64,000 nucleotides of DNA. Origin: Candidatus Zixiibacteriota bacterium (GTDB lineage Bacteria; Zixibacteria; MSB-5A5; GN15; PGXB01). The number at the start of each line of letters is the position of its first letter. Position 1 is the first letter of the stretch. The notes under the pieces are model-generated. The model ran no database searches, had not been told where the DNA came from, and saw only the letters and a list, made by a program, of their open reading frames with translations. The translations under genes were made by a program, and so were the position numbers. This document shows positions 6,796 through 18,057 of the stretch, in pieces. The stretch covers positions 132,380-196,379 of the forward strand of contig LS998015.1 in assembly GCA_900498245.1 (NCBI GenBank). The letters run 5' to 3'.

Positions 6796-7692
6796 TTACC
6801 TAAAATCGTTCAGCGGGTGCTTGAGCATCTGTGAGCGCAAATGTTCAGTACTAGCGGCTAGGTAGATTGTCGTGGTTTTAATGTCGCTGTGTCCTAACAT
6901 CTTGGAAAGTGAGAATATATCACACCCTCCTTCGAGCATGAGCGTTGCGAATGTGTGTCTAAGCTTGTGGACGCTAAACCGAATGCCGGATACTTTCTTC
7001 ATGAACTCAACAAGTCTCTTCATCCCCGTTTCGGTAAACCCCATATTTCGGTTCAATGAGGTGAAAAATTCCGGGCAAGTTTTCTTGAGACGGTTTCGTT
7101 GCTCAATGTACCTCCGTAGAATACCTGATAGGGTCGGGCTCATTGGCACGACCCGATCCTTGCTGCCCTTGCCCTGTCGAATGAAGATTGATTGATTCAT
7201 TATGTCGACGTCTACCATCTTCAAATTGAGGAGCTCTTTTTTTCTCAATCCTGCATAGACAAAAGTTGCGAAAATGGCGTGGTTTCGGAATCGCTGGAAG
7301 GTATATGGGTAAGGGTAATTTTGCGCAATCTCCAGAAGACGGAGTACCTCTTGTTTCTTCAGCTTTGAGGGTAATTTTTTCTCAGTCTTTGGCATTTCCA
7401 TATCGTCCGTTGGGTTCGATTGCAGATATCCCTGGCGAACACACCACCGAAAGAACACGGCAAGAGATTTGTGATAGGTAATGAAAGAGTTTGGTGCCCA
7501 ATGTCTTTCCTGCCTGCCGTGAAAGAAGAACTCTCTCACCTTGGAATCGGTGCAATCTTCGACCACCTGCACATTAAGGTGTCTTAAAAGCAGCCGCACA
7601 GTCAAGTGGTAGCGCTTGATGGTGTCCGGCGAGTATCCGAGCATATATTTCGAATAATCGCAAAAATTATTGAGAGCGGTGATGATGTCCAT
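6796..7692 (-). CDS. Tyrosine recombinase 1 (phage-type integrase)
   Basis: 298 residues. SAM-like core-binding domain at ~1-95, catalytic domain ~110-298. The full catalytic set is visible: R150 (YAGLRKKEL), H242 and R245 (HKLRHTFA), H268 (LGHSDI) and Y277 (TTIYLAA). Close paralogue of recombinase 2 (14104-14997). It starts 51 bases from the 3' end of the tRNA-Thr gene at 7744, the usual arrangement for an integrase next to its tRNA attachment site. A small dyad (ACCGCA/TGCAGT type) between gene and tRNA is shared with recombinase 2. Confidence 0.9.
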   Translation of the reverse strand: MDIITALNNFCDYSKYMLGYSPDTIKRYHLTVRLLLRHLNVQVVEDCTDSKVREFFFHGRQERHWAPNSFITYHKSLAVFFRWCVRQGYLQSNPTDDMEMPKTEKKLPSKLKKQEVLRLLEIAQNYPYPYTFQRFRNHAIFATFVYAGLRKKELLNLKMVDVDIMNQSIFIRQGKGSKDRVVPMSPTLSGILRRYIEQRNRLKKTCPEFFTSLNRNMGFTETGMKRLVEFMKKVSGIRFSVHKLRHTFATLMLEGGCDIFSLSKMLGHSDIKTTTIYLAASTEHLRSQMLKHPLNDFR

Positions 7693-7743: not shown

Positions 7744-8029
7744 TGGAGCCGTTGGGCGGATTTGAACCGCCGACCTACTCCTTCGCTTCCACCGCTATTT
7801 CAGCCCCTTTTTGGGACCTATTAGCGGGCTAGACTGTATATTAAGCCTTCCCGTTTGGGCTTTGGCTCCCCTTGTCAGTCGTTCGCCCCGCCAAATGGCG
7901 GGGACGGTCTGACCCCGCGGTCGCGGGGCTTTAACCGTTATTCAGGATTCGCGACCGGGTTTCACCGATCGTGGGCAGGACTTTGTGCGGCCCACCATGG
8001 AGTTGCTCTACCAGCTGAGCTACAACGGC
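7744..8029 (-). tRNA. tRNA-Thr(GGU), interrupted in the anticodon loop
   Basis: Two exons, 8029-7994 (36 nt) and 7783-7744 (40 nt), join into a standard 76-nt tRNA with encoded CCA. Acceptor stem GCCGTTG/CAACGGC is perfect, D-stem GCTC/GAGC, anticodon stem ACTCC/GGAGT, loop A-U-GGU-A-A with U33, variable AGGTC, T-arm GGCGG-TTCAAAT-CCGCC. Identity threonine from the GGU anticodon. The break falls between positions 36 and 37. The 3' exon recurs exactly at 15050-15089 next to a second recombinase, so the same half is an integrase attachment site. Confidence 0.85.
7784..7993 (-). ncRNA. Group I intron (210 nt) in tRNA-Thr
   Basis: The 5' exon ends in U and the intron ends in G (omega-G), as group I splicing needs. 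Core signatures on the RNA: P/J4-5 element CGGUGAAACC, Q element GAAUCCUGA, P6 ACGGU/ACCGU, then P7 formed by GACUG (R) and CAGUC (S), with S in the context AAUAUACAGUC close to the family consensus. P8 AGCC/GGCU lies between the P7 strands. Two extra GC hairpins (CCCCGC/GCGGGG and CCCCGCC/GGCGGGG) are present. No ORF, so no homing endonuclease. A P1 with the usual U-G wobble is not obvious; GUGGGC/GCCCAC pairs there instead. Confidence 0.78.
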
Positions 8030-8159
8030 GCATTGTATACGATGATTTTTGAGAAGCCCGTGACCTATTCCGGTATGGAATAGGCCCATTTGAGGGCATT
8101 TCTCGTCATTTTTCGGCTAAGATTAGCCATTTTTCACCATTTTGCCGGGGACCCATTCA

Positions 8160-8377
8160 TTACCATCAAATCAACCGAAACCAAAAATGAAATAATGGGC
8201 TTATCTATTGAGTGAAATCATCGTTTGCCATTTTTTATAATAGGGAGCCGATGGACCTGTTCTCTACATATTTTGGCGGGGGGAAAAGCGACTGAATAAT
8301 ACTGCAATGATTGAAGTATTTGGTTGGTAAGATGCGACTAACGAAAATTAACATTTCTAAACAAAAATTTCAAGTAA
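8160..8377. repeat. About 215-bp direct repeat, copy A
   Basis: Matches 15088-15301 at high identity (from TTACCATCAAATCAACCG through TTGGTAAGATGCGACT). In copy A it lies 130 bp beyond the tRNA 5' end; in copy B it is joined directly to the tRNA 3' exon. No gene is visible inside. Probably one arm of the integrating element family. Confidence 0.8.
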
Positions 8378-9419: not shown

Positions 9420-10907
9420 TTAAGACACATACGCCTGAAGGTGTCTAAATATTTCAACCATTGCTAATGTATCCATACAGCAATAGTCCAATAACGCCTT
9501 TTTAATACTTTCCTTTTGAGATTCATCTAAGTCATCGAATATTAGCTTCCGCCAGTTTTCCATAGCTTCGGTGCCTCCTTGGATAGATAGGTCTTTGTAG
9601 GAAAATTGGGGTAAGAGCGCGGGCAATACTTTCTTAATTGAAGTTCCGCCTTTGAATCCAGGGTGCAAATAGGACTCCTTAAACACTGTCTCCAAATCAA
9701 AAGTCCGCGCATTGAGATCTAGGAGCATTTGGGCGTGAAGCGGATTCAATTCAGCCATCTCTTTGTTTCTCGTATTTTCGAATGAAGCGTGCCAGGAAAC
9801 AACTTTTCCGCCGCTGCAATCAATGCCTTTCAAGTATTCCAAAAGATTGCCCGGAACATCAGCAATGCTTGTGCCGAGATATTCGTAATGCTGAAGTGTT
9901 CCGTCTTTATGAAGTTTATGAATCGACACCTGAAACGGAATATGCTGATAAGGCCCATACCCATCAAGAATGGGAATAGCGGCGCAGTAGGTTTCATAAT
10001 CGAGGAAGTATAGGGGATAGGACAGCGAATCCAGAAGTTTCTTAATTGCGTCATGGTCAATTTGTGGCTTTTGCGATCTAGCCACTTGCACTTGATTATT
10101 TTGTATATCCGTCAATTTGAAGCTGTCCGACACATCTTCTATCTTTACAATTCCGGACTGGATAATAGTCTTAATTTTCTCCGGACGAATTCTAAGGATA
10201 TCATGTACGGAATAATCCGGCACGTCCGGGTTGAAAACACCAAAACTCGAACAGTGATTCCCTCTAGTCAAATAGAGACAGTCACAAAAGACCAGGTCGA
10301 TCTGGTCCTTATTCAACAAAGTTAAAGCCTCCAGCATTTCGGCGGCAGTGTTGTCAGCGGCCTTCTGTACATCCTCTGACACATCATGTATTTTAAGGAG
10401 TTCCTTAACGTTCAGTTTCCCCGCCCTCCTATATTCCTTATTGAGGTGCACTATGAACGTTCGATCTACAGAAACTCCGGATTGCTCCAGCACAAGTTTT
10501 TGAAAGGTGACATCCTTTATGTGGTTGTGAGATCTGTCAGTTTTTACCTCGGTCGAAGACTTGACTTCATAAATATCCCACTTGTCAGTATCAGCATTGA
10601 AGCGGAGTATATCAATCCTCGCGAGGCAGTTGTTATTGGAAACCGTAGTGGCTTGAAATATCGGGGAAGTGTGACTGTCAATTAGTCTTTTGGTTTCCAA
10701 CAAAGATTGCTCCAATTCGCTGCTCACAAGGGTGCCATTTGGGAATAAAGAATGGGCCAAAAGCTCTACTTCTTGACCCTCTTCAATCTTACTTTCCTCA
10801 AAGTCCGTTGGCACCGGGGCAATATAAAGGTCGGGTCGTTTCTTTTTGAGCCACAAGCACTTGGAGCACTGCAAATATTCAATGAAATCAGTTTTTGTTA
10901 AGTACAT
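9420..10907 (-). CDS. DUF2779 protein with PD-(D/E)XK-like nuclease core
   Basis: 495 residues. The N-terminus (LTKTDFIEYLQCSKCLWLKK) is the usual opening of DUF2779 proteins. A PD-(D/E)XK-like pair is seen at D~96 (ARIDILRF) and E-x-K at ~116 (IYEVKSSTEVK). The C-terminal half starts YFLDYETYCAAIP (~300) and continues with acidic residues spaced like a DnaQ/RNase H-type exonuclease. Likely a nucleic-acid nuclease, inferred from motifs. It starts 46 bases after the ATPase gene 10954-13935 and is surely co-transcribed, so the two probably form one defence module. N-terminal CSKC may bind a metal cluster. Confidence 0.8.
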   Translation of the reverse strand: MYLTKTDFIEYLQCSKCLWLKKKRPDLYIAPVPTDFEESKIEEGQEVELLAHSLFPNGTLVSSELEQSLLETKRLIDSHTSPIFQATTVSNNNCLARIDILRFNADTDKWDIYEVKSSTEVKTDRSHNHIKDVTFQKLVLEQSGVSVDRTFIVHLNKEYRRAGKLNVKELLKIHDVSEDVQKAADNTAAEMLEALTLLNKDQIDLVFCDCLYLTRGNHCSSFGVFNPDVPDYSVHDILRIRPEKIKTIIQSGIVKIEDVSDSFKLTDIQNNQVQVARSQKPQIDHDAIKKLLDSLSYPLYFLDYETYCAAIPILDGYGPYQHIPFQVSIHKLHKDGTLQHYEYLGTSIADVPGNLLEYLKGIDCSGGKVVSWHASFENTRNKEMAELNPLHAQMLLDLNARTFDLETVFKESYLHPGFKGGTSIKKVLPALLPQFSYKDLSIQGGTEAMENWRKLIFDDLDESQKESIKKALLDYCCMDTLAMVEIFRHLQAYVS

Positions 10908-10953
10908 ATAGTTGCTAAGTTCGTTAGAAAAGCCTATTTGCCTTTATGCACAC

Positions 10954-13935
10954 TTAGGCTATTCTCACCTTCTCCGACAATTGATACTTTCGATTTCGAT
11001 TTCCAAAGGCAGTTTTGCCGCCCTCAAGAATGTCACAGACCTGTTCTAGAATTCCGTCTTCCAAGTCCTCAACTGGCACATTGGGTAGCTTTTCCGCCTG
11101 ATTCTCAAGTGAGCCTGAAGTATACTGTAGCCGCGGTTGCCGTTCGCCATGATAATTGGCAATAATTACCTGCTCCGCATCCGTATTCACGACCAAGTTG
11201 GGATTATGTGTCACCATTATTATTTGCCTATATACTTTTCGCTCACGAAAGTACTGCATCAAATCACTGTACACGGACAGATTGTCTAGGTTCTCTTCAG
11301 GTTGGTCGATTATCAAGGGACGGCAGTCATCTTTGTCAATGGCCAGATAGAGCATCATTAGAATGATGCCCTTTTGGCCTGGGGACAAAAGATATAAGTC
11401 AACTCCGTCAAACTTAAGCGATGACACAACCTCGAAATATTCTGGATCATAGAGCCAATTGTAGTAATGCTGAATTGTAAGACCCTCTTTTAATTGCTGC
11501 ACTACGTCGATCGGTTGCCCTTCACACTCGCGGAATTGGCCTTCAAGGGATGCCAAGCGAGCCTTGGTACTCGCTTCATTTATTGATAGCTTCATACACT
11601 CCTCCCAAGCAGTATCCAATGCTTTCCCCAATGCCCGCAACTCACGAAAATTGCCTCTGCGAGTTCGGTCCAATATGTTTAGCCCAACATCACAATGTTC
11701 TTTGATTCGATAGTGGATCTTTGCCTCAAAGACCAGACGTTTCTTAGTCTCAGAGCCCGCGAGCAATGACGCCTGCAGCGGAGTGTAAAGCGCCTCTATT
11801 TTGGTCTTCTCGCGCTGGAGGATTTCAAAATAATCACAGTAATGTTTTAGACGCTCCTCTTCAAGATGCTTCTGCTCAGGCAAAAGCACCGAATCTATGT
11901 TCTCAAGCTCGAGTTTAATAGCCTTAACAGCGGTTTCAGTTTCCTGAATCACTTTCTTTTGCTGCTGATATTTGAGTTTCTGAGTTTCATACGCTCGAGT
12001 TTCCTTGCTTTTTCGATTTATGGTATCACCGAGCTCTTTGAGATTATTAGCAAACATCGCCTCCGTACTAATTCCGCAGAGAATGCCGACTGGTTCCTTT
12101 TCACCTGACCTAATTGTATCTATCTCACCCTTGAGTGCAGTGGCTCGTTCGTTCAGTATCTTAGCAATACCGGTTCGATTCAGATTCACTTTGAATTCAT
12201 CGGACAGTGGGATTTCGGCAGCGCTGAGTAGCTTCCCAATTTCTTCTTCAAACTCCGTAATGCTGTGTCCGAATGACTCAACTTGAGCCTGCACCTCGTC
12301 CACAACATTGATAGTTCCCTGTCTTGTCGCAATGGCTTCTTCAAGCCGTCTCTTTTGCTCCTCCAGAGTCGCTAACTCATCCTGCGCCTTCTGGTCTTCC
12401 TCGGGCAATTTCGGCAGAGATTTCCTGAGTCGCTTCAATTCCTCTTGGCGCTGTTTTAAATCTTCCTGCTTCTTACCCTTGCCTTCGATTGTCCAAATAA
12501 TACCCGATAGTCTAGCATTGGCCTCAGAGATTTTCTTGCTCAACTGTCGCTTCTCATTTGTAAACTGCCGAAGCGCTTTTGACTGCAGTTCCTTGAAATT
12601 CGATGCGCCTAAACGTTCAGTCTCATCCAGGGCTTGAAAAATCACGTTCTCAATTTGCCGCTGCAATTCACCACTGTGCTCCGGAGCACATAGCTCTTCT
12701 ACGGCACCTTGCGGCAAATACCTAACGAGACCTGCATCATCCTTCAGTTTCCCCACTTCAAACGTAGTCGTGGTGCCATCAGCCCAATCAGTGGTGATAG
12801 TGGCACCGCTAATTGATTCTTGGTGTCTATCGGCTTTCCGTAGAAATGCGTCCGAGTGCGGATCGCTACTTCCAGCTCCATACGCTATGGCCTCGGCAAG
12901 AGCGGATTTGCCAGAACCACGCCCACCGATAATAGTCACGAGGTCGCGATTAAGTGGCAATTCAAAGTTATTTGGAAACCAGTTTTTGGAGTCGCGTATG
13001 ATGATACGTTGAATAACTTTGTGATCCGCCTTGAAATTTGGAGGAGCGTCACCAATAAAAACTCGCTCTTCTGGCTCATTCATTACCTGCTTAAGCCCGG
13101 CAAAAGTGGGATCTGCCTTAATCCATTGAAGCGTTGTGCCCACATCTTCAAGTCTGTGCGCGTCTGAACCATGCAAGATCAGTGGATTGAGATTATTATT
13201 CTTAAGGTCGATTCGATGCTCTGCAATCTTCGCCGGGTCATTGACGCACGTCATCGCAAAATGGCTGCGGTTGATCAGGTCTCTTTTCTCCGCAGCGGAT
13301 TGATCCCATCGCGCCTGATCCCACTCCGAAAAGCCAATAGCCGTAACGTACTTTCCGCGAAAGCAGGACTTTCCCTCTAGGCACTTCATAATATCCTCCC
13401 TGCTGTAGGTAATATTGTCGAACCCTACCTGCAAATCAGTCTTATTACGGACCGGATTTCCTTCCGGAGCCTGTTGCTTTATTTGCCTGCCTAGATCGCT
13501 AAGAGACCTTACTGTCGGCGTCTGCTGCCACTCACTCTTGTCAGTAATGTGATATCCTTTCGATAGACAATTCAAAAGCTGTTCGCGGATGTCAGGGATA
13601 GACACAGAGGTATCGAAAAGAACATGGAAGTTGTGACGACGTTTAGAGTTTGTTGTACCGGCGAAAGTATCAAGACGAAATTCTATGTTTGGTATGAGAA
13701 GGGCAATATTGGGAAATTCGCTTTTGCGTGCTTTGAGTTTCTCATATCCATCAATAAACAAATAATCACAAATACCGAGAACCTTAACTTCAGATGGGAG
13801 CGAAGAAATCTTTGCGACAAATTGATTCCAGATTTCGGGCGTATCTCCACCATATTGTTGAACAATGGACTGAGGGGTGTGGATATGCAAATCCCATTTA
13901 CGCCATTCAGAACCTCTGGGAAATTGACCACTCAT
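10954..13935 (-). CDS. PHP-domain SMC-like ATPase (TrlF-like)
   Basis: 993 residues. N-terminal PHP phosphoesterase/nuclease domain: WDLHIHTP (H17, H19), GICDYLF, NFHVLFD and GSDAH near 257, the metal ligands of the family. Walker A GGRGSGKSA near 340, a long coiled coil (~450-750), ABC signature LSPGQKG near 850, Walker B LIIDQPEENLDN near 878, and a late MVTHNPN switch. This RecN/SMC-like layout matches the family annotated as TrlF-type AAA-like ATPases, thought to act in defence against phages or plasmids. The ATG follows TGGGAG. First gene of the operon with the DUF2779 nuclease; a DNA/RNA-sensing ATPase that licenses cleavage is the natural inference. Confidence 0.85.
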   Translation of the reverse strand: MSGQFPRGSEWRKWDLHIHTPQSIVQQYGGDTPEIWNQFVAKISSLPSEVKVLGICDYLFIDGYEKLKARKSEFPNIALLIPNIEFRLDTFAGTTNSKRRHNFHVLFDTSVSIPDIREQLLNCLSKGYHITDKSEWQQTPTVRSLSDLGRQIKQQAPEGNPVRNKTDLQVGFDNITYSREDIMKCLEGKSCFRGKYVTAIGFSEWDQARWDQSAAEKRDLINRSHFAMTCVNDPAKIAEHRIDLKNNNLNPLILHGSDAHRLEDVGTTLQWIKADPTFAGLKQVMNEPEERVFIGDAPPNFKADHKVIQRIIIRDSKNWFPNNFELPLNRDLVTIIGGRGSGKSALAEAIAYGAGSSDPHSDAFLRKADRHQESISGATITTDWADGTTTTFEVGKLKDDAGLVRYLPQGAVEELCAPEHSGELQRQIENVIFQALDETERLGASNFKELQSKALRQFTNEKRQLSKKISEANARLSGIIWTIEGKGKKQEDLKQRQEELKRLRKSLPKLPEEDQKAQDELATLEEQKRRLEEAIATRQGTINVVDEVQAQVESFGHSITEFEEEIGKLLSAAEIPLSDEFKVNLNRTGIAKILNERATALKGEIDTIRSGEKEPVGILCGISTEAMFANNLKELGDTINRKSKETRAYETQKLKYQQQKKVIQETETAVKAIKLELENIDSVLLPEQKHLEEERLKHYCDYFEILQREKTKIEALYTPLQASLLAGSETKKRLVFEAKIHYRIKEHCDVGLNILDRTRRGNFRELRALGKALDTAWEECMKLSINEASTKARLASLEGQFRECEGQPIDVVQQLKEGLTIQHYYNWLYDPEYFEVVSSLKFDGVDLYLLSPGQKGIILMMLYLAIDKDDCRPLIIDQPEENLDNLSVYSDLMQYFRERKVYRQIIMVTHNPNLVVNTDAEQVIIANYHGERQPRLQYTSGSLENQAEKLPNVPVEDLEDGILEQVCDILEGGKTAFGNRNRKYQLSEKVRIA

Positions 13936-14103: not shown

Positions 14104-14997
14104 CTAAAAGGCGTCAAAGGGATGTTTAAGCATCTGCGCCCGCAGGTGCTCCGGACTTGCAGCGAGGTATATGGTCGTCGTCTTGATATCACTATGTCCG
14201 AGAATCTTGGAAAGCGAAAAAATGTCACAGCCGCCCTCCAGCATAATGGTAGCGAAAGTATGTCGGAGCTTGTGAATGCTAAACTGGATGCCCGATTTGT
14301 CTTTCAAGAAATCCACGAGCCGCTTCAAGCCCGCTTCAGTGAAACCCATATCCCGGTGCATTGAAACAAAGAATGCTGAACAGGCCTTATTAAGACGAAT
14401 GCGCTGCTCGCGATAGCGGTTCAATATTCTGCCCAGAGTGGGGCCAATGGGAATGATCCGATCTTTATTTCCTTTGCCTTGGTGAACAAATATTGCCATA
14501 TTAGCCAAGTCAACATCCGGCATTTTCAATTGAAGCAATTCACTTTTTCTCAAACCGGCTAAGATGAAGGTCGCCAGGATAGCATAATTCCGATATCGTT
14601 GAAAAGCATGGGGGAAAGGATAATTGCTGACAACATCCAATAGATGCAGTGCCTCTTGCTTGGTCAACCTGGACGGAAGCTTTTTTGCCTTCCTGGGCAT
14701 TTCAATATCCGTGGTTGGATTTGATGTTAGGTAACCCTGGCCTACACACCAGCGAAAGAAGACCGCAAGGGAATTCAGATAAGTAATAAACGTCGTCGGG
14801 GCCCAATGTTTTTCCTGCCTGCCATAATAAAAAAACTCTCTAACCTTAAATTCGCTACAGTCCCCAACCTCCTGAGCCTGAATATGTCTTTGCAGGTGTG
14901 TTACAGTGGCCCGATAGCGATCAATGGTTTTCTTTGAATATCCCCGAACATAATTTGAATAATTACAAAAATCATTAAGAGCCGATGAAAGTTCCAT
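14104..14997 (-). CDS. Tyrosine recombinase 2 (phage-type integrase)
   Basis: 297 residues, co-linear with recombinase 1 throughout and clearly its paralogue. Catalytic residues visible: R150 in LAGLRKSEL, H/R in HKLRHTFA, H in LGHSDIKTT, Y in TTIYLAA. It starts about 50 bases from the isolated tRNA-Thr 3' half at 15050-15089, repeating the geometry of recombinase 1 and the intact tRNA. Probably the integrase of the element carrying the PHP/SMC ATPase and DUF2779 genes. Confidence 0.9.
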   Translation of the reverse strand: MELSSALNDFCNYSNYVRGYSKKTIDRYRATVTHLQRHIQAQEVGDCSEFKVREFFYYGRQEKHWAPTTFITYLNSLAVFFRWCVGQGYLTSNPTTDIEMPRKAKKLPSRLTKQEALHLLDVVSNYPFPHAFQRYRNYAILATFILAGLRKSELLQLKMPDVDLANMAIFVHQGKGNKDRIIPIGPTLGRILNRYREQRIRLNKACSAFFVSMHRDMGFTEAGLKRLVDFLKDKSGIQFSIHKLRHTFATIMLEGGCDIFSLSKILGHSDIKTTTIYLAASPEHLRAQMLKHPFDAF

Positions 14998-15049: not shown

Positions 15050-15089
15050 TGGAGCCGTTGGGCGGATTTGAACCGCCGACCTACTCCTT
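15050..15089 (-). repeat. tRNA-Thr 3' half (attachment-site copy)
   Basis: Forty bases identical to 7744-7783, i.e. precisely the 3' exon of the intron-split tRNA-Thr gene: anticodon-loop AA, GGAGT, T-arm and CCA. No 5' half or intron follows; instead the 215-bp repeat starts at once. Such anticodon-loop-to-CCA segments are the standard identity block of tyrosine integrases. Confidence 0.85.
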
Positions 15090-15301
15090 ACCATCAAATC
15101 AACCGAGACCAAAAATGAAAAAATGGGCTTATCTATTGAGTGAAATCATCATTTGCCATTTTTTATAAAAGGGAGCCGGTGGACCTGTTCTCTACAATAT
15201 AGGGAGAGGAAAAAGCGATTAAAAAATACTGCAATGATTGAAGTATTTGGTTGGTAAGATGCGACTCAGAGACTTTATCATTTCTAAATGAGGTTTTCAA
15301 G
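15088..15301. repeat. About 215-bp direct repeat, copy B
   Basis: Second copy of the sequence at 8160-8377; here it abuts the tRNA 3' half with only the shared TT as junction. Its last bases run into a recombinase relic. Confidence 0.8.
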
Positions 15302-15385
15302 GGTGAGCGTCTCAACGTCTCCACGCATTGCAGATGTCGGGATATAACGCAAATATGTCGCGGTCATCCGGGTAAATCGCCGCAG
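15284..15385 (-). pseudogene. C-terminal relic of a recombinase-3-type integrase
   Basis: On the minus strand the sequence encodes MTATYLRYIPTSAMRGDV then ETLTLENLI and a stop, closely matching the last 30 residues of recombinase 3 (MTATYLRCLPTTAMRGDV). Nothing recognisable of the rest remains. It shows that a fourth integrase once sat here. The stretch 15386-15570 holds nothing else I can identify. Confidence 0.75.
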
Positions 15386-17068: not shown

Positions 17069-17110
17069 CCGGAGCCGATGACCGGAATTGAACCGGGGAG
17101 TCGCACTCAC
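17069..17110 (-). repeat. tRNA 3'-end-like fragment next to recombinase 3
   Basis: On the minus strand CCCGG-TTCAATT-CCGGT then CATCGGC-TCC is a T-arm (one mismatch) plus acceptor 3' strand of a tRNA whose 5' strand would read GCCGATG, a threonine-like acceptor. No 5' half is present. Ends six bases from the stop of recombinase 3; probably an attachment-site remnant. Confidence 0.6.
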
Positions 17111-17115
17111 TATCA

Positions 17116-18057
17116 TTACACTAAATTATCAAGTGTAAGTGTCTCCACATCTCCTCGCATTGCGGTTGTCGGGAGACAACGCAAATAGGTCGCGGTCATG
17201 CGGATATCGCGATGCCCCAATAGCTGTTTAAGTTTGGCTATGTCACTCCCATTGTTAAGCAGATTGACTGCAAAGGTATGCCTAAGCTGGTGCAAATGAA
17301 AATTTACCCGGGAGGATTTGCGGATGGTTTCCACTAGGTGCTTCAATCCATTGGCTGTCAGTCCCCCATCATAATTAGAGGAAACAAACAAGAATGGTGT
17401 TGCCAGTTTTCTTTGATATCTCTCGATAAAATATTCACGGAGGATCTTTGAAAGTTCTAAGGAAATTGGGATTATTCTGCGAAGACGAGATTTAGAAGTC
17501 TCAGCGCGGACGGTTAATTCTCGACGCTGCAGATCGACATCCATTACTTTAAGATTAAGCAACTCCCCTTTCCGCAACCCTGTGTAAAGAAATGTGGAAA
17601 AAATGGCAATATTGCGCTTCTGGAGGAAATTGTCGAAAAACATGGCGCTCATGGCCAGGGCCCCGAACACCTTTTCAATTTCTTGCCGAGTAAGATATTT
17701 CCGGTCTTCATACTGCACATCAGGATAGTCCATGAGTGTCAAGGGATTTGTCTTAATATGCTTATGATTTTCCAGCCACTTGAAGAATCTGTTCAATTTG
17801 CTCCTATATGTGGCAATAGTGGATTTTCTCACGCCCACTTTTTTAATCCCCCGCCCGACCATTCTTGTTCGCGTTTCAAGACGCCGAAAAAACTCAGTCA
17901 ATGTTGCAGGAGTAACATCTTTCATGGATATGCCGGCCATGACCTGGCATAACAAAAAAAAGCTCTGTTCGTATCCCCGCAAGGTATCTCGGGATAATCG
18001 CGTTGAATAACGCTGTTCCTTTAGGAATCGTTTGTGGAGTTCTTTCAATTCAGGCAT
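17116..18057 (-). CDS. Tyrosine recombinase 3 (XerC/D-like)
   Basis: 313 residues, a different subfamily from recombinases 1 and 2. Core-binding domain ~1-110; catalytic residues R162 (YTGLRKGEL), H256 and R259 (HQLRHTFA), H282 (LGHRDI), Y291 (TATYLRC). Its promoter carries the TTGCC-N6-GGCAA box shared with three XRE regulators and the annealing-protein operon, so its expression is probably tied to theirs. A C-terminal relic of a close homologue is at 15284. Confidence 0.9.
   Translation of the reverse strand: MPELKELHKRFLKEQRYSTRLSRDTLRGYEQSFFLLCQVMAGISMKDVTPATLTEFFRRLETRTRMVGRGIKKVGVRKSTIATYRSKLNRFFKWLENHKHIKTNPLTLMDYPDVQYEDRKYLTRQEIEKVFGALAMSAMFFDNFLQKRNIAIFSTFLYTGLRKGELLNLKVMDVDLQRRELTVRAETSKSRLRRIIPISLELSKILREYFIERYQRKLATPFLFVSSNYDGGLTANGLKHLVETIRKSSRVNFHLHQLRHTFAVNLLNNGSDIAKLKQLLGHRDIRMTATYLRCLPTTAMRGDVETLTLDNLV

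Follow-up and report, generated by a model that had tools for sequence, protein, structure and literature searches.

The window analysed here, a stretch of 64,000 nt corresponding to positions 132380-196379 of the single-contig 3.5-Mb genome of a Candidatus Zixiibacteriota bacterium, encodes a tRNA-Thr(GGU) gene that is split in its anticodon loop by a 210-nt insert and is followed directly by a tyrosine recombinase gene. Two further recombinase genes and additional tRNA-derived sequences lie upstream, and the following features are distinguished in this region:

6796-7692, minus strand: int1, encoding a tyrosine recombinase and immediately following the split tRNA gene (Pfam Phage_integrase, E 4.9e-30)
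7744-7783, minus strand: 3' exon of the tRNA, nt 37-76, with encoded CCA
7784-7993, minus strand: predicted group I intron of 210 nt between nt 36 and 37, its last base (7784) being omega-G (69-sequence alignment and pair counts; model R1)
7994-8029, minus strand: 5' exon of tRNA-Thr(GGU), nt 1-36 (GCCGTTG...CTCCATGGT); spliced gene called tRNA-Thr(ggt)
8030-8159, minus strand: leader between the att core and the split tRNA gene, with a counterpart in 10 related loci
8160-8166, minus strand: att core ATGGTAA (anticodon-loop sequence), where the right end of the upstream element meets the left end of the split-tRNA element
8167-8374, minus strand: right end of the upstream element E2, with a ~87% identical copy at 15095-15301
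9420-13935, minus strand: E2 cargo, a DUF2779 protein (9420-10907) and an SMC/AAA ATPase (10954-13935) that weakly matches defence ATPases
14104-14997, minus strand: int2, tyrosine recombinase, 67% identical to int1
15050-15094, minus strand: second att core ATGGTAA and intact tRNA-Thr 3' half without intron (nt 32-76; 100% identical), immediately preceding int2
17116-18057, minus strand: int3, related to recombinases at the right ends of Patescibacterial elements

When the insert is removed, the exons on the minus strand (8029 to 7744) form the perfect 76-nt tRNA-Thr(GGU) that an earlier note on this DNA had read from them, and ARAGORN calls the product tRNA-Thr(ggt); the unspliced gene received no ARAGORN call and no Rfam match. 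The 210-nt insert between nt 36 and 37, which the same note had described as ending in G after an exon U, was located at 7993-7784, with U36 as the preceding exon base and G at its 3' end. A cut after U36 is the sole 5' cut that yields the Thr anticodon loop ATGGTAA, so that the boundaries are unique. The 286-nt unspliced RNA folds 5.5 sd better than its shuffles (z -5.5).

Along the minus strand, the array begins with int3 and a 3'-half-like remnant, continues through an element right end (15301-15095), an att core (15094-15088), the intact intronless 3' half, int2 and the cargo, and ends with the E2 right end (8374-8167), the core at 8166-8160, the leader, the split tRNA gene and int1. Both int1 and int2 adjoin tRNA sequence, and the att cores at 8160 and 15088 have the 7-nt loop in common. 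Since the two flanks of the att core before the split tRNA gene come from different elements, this core represents the junction of two elements' ends. The C-terminal remnant of a further int3-type recombinase copy is located at 15294-15374, while the tRNA 3'-half-like remnant (CGGTTCAATTCCGGTCATCGGCTCC) at 17071-17095, just past int3, is probably another displaced end. Neither half of a broken host tRNA, the 5' half included, nor the right end of the int1 element was found within the sequence examined, and the array may have been rearranged.

Core structure of the insert

The structure of the insert was derived from an alignment of 69 intron sequences with 49 pairs in P1, P2, P3, P4, P5, P6, P7, P8, P9.0 and P9. 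Its helices follow the order P1-P2-P3-P4-P5-P6-P7-P3'-P8-P7'-P9.0-P9, in which P7 crosses P3 to form a pseudoknot, and the P3/P7 crossing is a feature of all group I introns. The principal core elements in the window are:

7974-7976, minus strand: internal guide sequence GCC, which pairs with 7996-7994 (exon GGU) and forms the U36·G wobble (69/69 in the family)
7869-7946, minus strand: P3 (7946-7943 with 7874 and 7871-7869), crossing P7 and enclosing P4-P6; compensatory changes at 3/4 pairs
7904-7938, minus strand: P4 (7938-7933 with 7909-7904), with P5 inside (69-sequence pair counts)
7832-7880, minus strand: P7, GACUG (7880-7876) with CAGUC (7836-7832), enclosing P8; P7 invariant, P8 with compensatory changes
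7785-7829, minus strand: P9.0 (7829-7828 with 7786-7785) and P9; P9.0 covariation

In the 69-sequence alignment, 94.9% of the cells across the 49 pairs are paired and two-sided changes occur at 31 pairs, a result reached by none of 500 shuffles, and sliding the partners by 1-3 columns as a control lowered pairing to at most 44%. The P7 helix around P8 that the earlier note had proposed is invariant in 69/69 relatives. P9.0, which adjoins the terminal G, covaries in the 69 sequences (GC in 52 and AU in 17 at one pair, CG in 45 and UA in 17 at the other), and omega-G is found in 69/69, a terminal G having been a selection requirement for the relatives. P6 of the window is double-compensated, with C-G pairs where most relatives have G-C. 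A core covariance model (R1) built without the window sequence matches the window with 95.5 bits (E 2.4e-26).

The pairing at the 5' splice site differs from that first supposed. The earlier note had found P1 to lack a U-G wobble, probably from a register that paired U36 with A, and the minimum-energy fold likewise joins GUGGGC with GCCCAC and places U36 opposite A. This register was rejected, being broken in up to 22 of the 69 relatives with zero two-sided changes. All 69 sequences retain the register of GGU with GCC, which contains U36·G, and the extension of this P1 pairing covaries.

The Rfam model RF00028 (Intron_gpI) gave no match to the window insert at gathering or relaxed thresholds, even at E up to 10, which could favour a structured tRNA insert of another kind over a group I intron. 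Against this stand the canonical helix order, the P3/P7 crossing, the U·G pair at the 5' site, omega-G and the P9.0 covariation, and an insert outside the group I class is considered highly improbable. RF00028 also misses those Patescibacterial relatives examined; its failure is a limit of the model, and a match to it is not a defining feature of the ribozyme. The small group I intron in tRNA-Thr posited by the earlier note is thus supported by the 69-sequence covariation, U36·G, omega-G and P9.0. Of the observations which that note had set jointly against its own reading, the two open to computation, namely no match to group I models and an uninterrupted tRNA-Thr(GGU) gene elsewhere, were both made, and the group I reading is nonetheless upheld by comparison. 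They were too weak as grounds for rejection, because RF00028 misses the relatives too and the intact copy is explained by an acquired split gene.

The intron family and the origin of the window copy

A total of 85,000 prokaryote genomes were scanned for tRNA-Thr genes in which nt 37 is not A, and the exons were then paired computationally. Among the matches listed, there are at least 71 split tRNA-Thr(GGU) genes with at least 70 distinct sequences, the window included, all with inserts of 178-269 nt at the same position. Nearly all of the listed records that are named to phylum belong to the Patescibacteria, including Kaiser-, Nomura-, Wolfe-, Moran-, Uhr-, Vogel- and Doudnabacteria, Saccharibacteria and others. 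The inserts have a common core, GAATCCCGAATAACGGTTAA ... AAGACCGTGGC ... CCCGAACGACTGACAAGGG ... AAGATACAGTCTAGCCC ... GGTGTAAGCG, and exactly one intron copy is present in each of the 16 relative-bearing genomes tested. Most of the intron-bearing Patescibacterial tRNA-Thr genes have no recombinase and several are situated before rpmG, and the intron thus also occurs without the element. BLAST searches of the split gene against phages, plasmids and relatives returned exon fragments only. A second non-Patescibacterial record with split tRNA and recombinase, assigned to Niastella populi (L120; NZ_LWBP01000002.1, 5234-5414), resembles the window in having the core ATGGTAA upstream and no tRNA 5' half there, and may represent contamination.

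Group I introns of bacterial tRNA genes are found in tRNA-Leu(UAA) and tRNA-fMet of cyanobacteria, in tRNA-Ile(CAU) of Azoarcus, Acidovorax and Burkholderia and in tRNA-Arg(CCU) of Agrobacterium. The intron described here resembles the bacterial tRNA group I introns, among them those of fMet and Ile2 (PMC8450103), in being small (~200 nt) and ORF-less and in its anticodon-loop location, U·G pair at the 5' site and omega-G; it differs in its host gene, tRNA-Thr(GGU), in a core missed by RF00028 and in the recombinase alongside. Lui et al. (2021; PMC8172020) briefly noted group I introns in tRNAs of circularized CPR genomes; the passages concerned name neither the tRNA nor the intron structure and draw no connection to mobile elements, and these introns probably include the present family. 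The literature search covered open-licence PMC papers, which leaves precedence for the Patescibacterial intron family uncertain; the group I intron in tRNA-Thr(GGU) adds a further member to a known kind. Other tRNA inserts were observed in viral contigs (L209 near 3937, L217 near 2512, L208/L210 and L215), which carry tRNA-Asn(GUU)-like genes with anticodon-loop inserts of 46-92 nt, apparently between nt 34 and 35. Those of L209 and L217 resemble a complete CCA-ending tRNA (for example GTCCGAATAGTTCAG...CTTTGGGCACCA), a tRNA-like sequence nested in a tRNA gene, and ARAGORN made no call on the phage inserts.

In the phylum of the Zixibacterial host, the intron is present in one of 132 genomes, that of the window. 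The second, intact tRNA-Thr(GGU) gene for which a check had been advised is an ordinary one at 2196655-2196727 of the host genome, and its presence is accounted for by acquisition of the split one. The intron tree places the window as sister to L182, a Parcubacteria genome (support 0.95), int1 is closest by identity (77%) to the recombinase beside the L182 gene, and int1, int2 and the L182 enzyme group together in the recombinase tree (support 0.97). The split gene encodes its CCA, as do only ~5 of the 44 other tRNA genes of the host genome. To judge from sequence, the split gene is not native to the host, and horizontal movement of tRNA-Thr, intron and recombinase together from the Patescibacteria, a direction that we infer, would be the parsimonious reading. 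Concern over an assembly chimera was set aside, as the host genome is one 3.5-Mb contig with even GC across the region. Group I introns detectable with RF00028 occur in seven genomes of the host phylum (L048, L049, L051-L053, L047 and L050), and the flanks of those in L048, L049 and L051 resemble 23S rRNA; judging by their flanks, no recognisable tRNA contains any of these introns, and R1 matches none of them.

Integrative elements at tRNA-Thr(GGU) in Patescibacteria

Relatives of int1 with 57-77% identity are encoded directly after the split tRNA-Thr gene in Patescibacteria, and no close viral or plasmid relatives of int1 were found. The loci with a recombinase begin with the 5' half of an intronless tRNA-Thr gene, which stops exactly at nt 38 (..TGGTAA), and continue with a leader, the complete split tRNA gene, a hairpin resembling a terminator and, last, the recombinase gene. 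Among the loci listed, 8 of the 11 with a recombinase have an intronless 5' half at a distance of 155-178 nt upstream, as against one of the 58 others (Fisher p 1.7e-7). A matching 3' half, starting exactly at nt 32, is present in the genomes of L182, L137 and L190, so that both host tRNA halves bound an element in three Patescibacterial genomes, and the rejoined halves form a perfect tRNA-Thr(GGU). The halves agree in the acceptor stem in L182 (GCCGATG/CATCGGC) and in the anticodon stem in L137 (GCTCC/GGAGC), in both cases differing from the replacement gene, which identifies them as the two ends of a disrupted host gene. They overlap by 7 nt, nt 32-38, comprising the anticodon loop, and a 7-nt overlap is as expected for a tyrosine recombinase (PMC8371274). 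These elements evidently break the host tRNA-Thr gene within its 7-nt anticodon loop and supply an entire replacement gene, which in many of them carries the intron.

The element of L137 is ~13.6 kb in length, and that of L190 occupies ~25 kb between the tRNA-Thr halves (G151:C3:94871-119840; L281, L282); a second recombinase lies at the right end of the latter, and its cargo is similar to defence genes (a DrmD/BrxH-like helicase, a type IIG enzyme, HEC-01 (HEC-01A/B) and Ppl-like). All nine element-type Patescibacterial genomes tested contain a single occurrence of TGGTAA after a tRNA 5' half, and 12 other genomes with the split gene contain none. By this pattern, the split gene is the sole tRNA-Thr(GGU) seen in those 12 genomes, and the replacement is the sole one seen in the element genomes. 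The recombinase family was also searched for in 380 Patescibacteria genomes, a less biased sample, and five tRNA-Thr(GGU) elements were recovered; the complete replacement lacks the intron in four of them (L308, L309, L313 and L314) and contains it in one (L310). In view of these intronless replacements, the element is no longer taken to need the intron. Recombinases following an intact tRNA gene were also observed for Thr-UGU (L311) and Lys (L312).

The leaders of L182, L137, L120, L177, L190, L179, L126, L199, L100 and L164 and of the window (8030-8159) mostly show a GGTC-like start after the core, and an inverted repeat lies tens of nt before the tRNA, in many cases terminated by AGGTC, a sequence also found in the tRNA V-loop. 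These repeats are possibly recombinase arm sites or an RNA hairpin.

Islander islands target tRNA genes through anticodon-centred att sites and normally restore the target with the missing part that they carry (PMC4383910). The present elements share with them the tyrosine recombinase, the anticodon-loop crossover and the displaced 3' fragment, but they carry an entire second gene and leave that of the host broken. Conventional restoration of the tRNA by a carried 3' half was dropped for the int1 element in view of the intronless 5' halves upstream in its relatives; it still fits int2. On the combined sequence comparisons, the insert in the window is read, with a probability of roughly 0.8, as a 210-nt ORF-less group I intron that would have been inherited within the replacement tRNA-Thr(GGU) gene of an integrative element of Patescibacterial origin.

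Possible roles of the intron in the replacement gene

Under this reading, the tRNA precursor would be transcribed and the RNA would fold, exogenous G would attack after U36 at the U·G pair, and the exons would be joined by predicted self-splicing to a functional tRNA-Thr(GGU). The split gene might instead be a dead relic in its present host, a redundant tRNA that is perhaps neither transcribed nor spliced. The genome has an intact tRNA-Thr(GGU) gene, no convincing promoter-like site lies close upstream on the right strand, and the upstream element may separate the split gene from a host promoter. Against this speak exons and core helices that are all intact, the lack of any disabling change and the compensatory C-G pairs in P6, and a relic is considered unlikely.

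The adjacent tyrosine recombinase, with a predicted specificity for this site, would insert the element into the anticodon loop of an intronless host tRNA-Thr(GGU) gene across the 7-nt overlap of nt 32-38, [A/T]TGGTAA; the host gene would be split and a complete replacement supplied beside the recombinase. The intron separates nt 36 from nt 37, within this overlap, and by interrupting it in the window copy should leave the replacement no substrate for its own or related recombinases. The broken host genes, as seen in their 5' halves, are all intronless, and only at the decayed locus L181 does a recombinase follow the split gene with neither a core nor a 5' half before it. Comparison with the broken host gene, read from sequence in sets that were sampled differently, shows a different anticodon stem in all four intronless replacements and an identical one in seven of ten intron-bearing replacements (p = 0.07). 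These small numbers fit two possible routes by which self-targeting would be avoided, the intron or an altered anticodon stem.

Shielding of the replacement by the intron is plausible but unproven. In its full form, an element would break the only tRNA-Thr(GGU) gene of its host and provide a replacement that neither its own nor competing recombinases could cut, splicing would restore the tRNA, and intronless replacements would escape through altered anticodon stems; this proposal is advanced tentatively, at close to an even chance. A rival reading keeps the intron as real but takes its position in the overlap as coincidental, the element having captured an intron-bearing tRNA from a donor, with no protective role resulting. 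Anticodon loops are preferred sites of group I introns and of integrases alike, the same element family includes intronless replacements, and recombinase-free intron-bearing genes are common in Patescibacteria. The uniformly intronless 5'-half targets, the isolated exception of L181 and the contrast in anticodon stems argue against coincidence, which is rated at somewhat under an even chance.

The shielding proposal has a precedent in the disruption model for tRNA-Thr(GGU) of Caldiarchaeum, put forward for a single archaeal locus by Sugahara et al. (2012; PMC3293823), and in the Randau-Soll hypothesis that tRNA introns give protection, as cited there. The Caldiarchaeum case also involves tRNA-Thr(GGU), with a 5' fragment upstream, a complete intron-gaining tRNA and then a recombinase, and its intron is likewise proposed to protect the integrated element. 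In that one locus, an archaeal intron at 24/25 is excised by protein enzymes, whereas the present system has an intron of the bacterial, predicted self-splicing type, many loci, a precise 7-nt overlap and matched host halves.

These findings add tRNA-Thr(GGU) to the host genes of group I introns and disclose a large intron family missed by current annotation. As the split genes are invisible to ARAGORN and Rfam, the genomes that carry them appear to be without tRNA-Thr(GGU). Should the shielding proposal hold, the cell would become dependent on the element. The many comparable bacterial loci offer a direct test of the old idea of tRNA introns acting against integration, for which a single recombinase and the tRNA gene in two versions would suffice.
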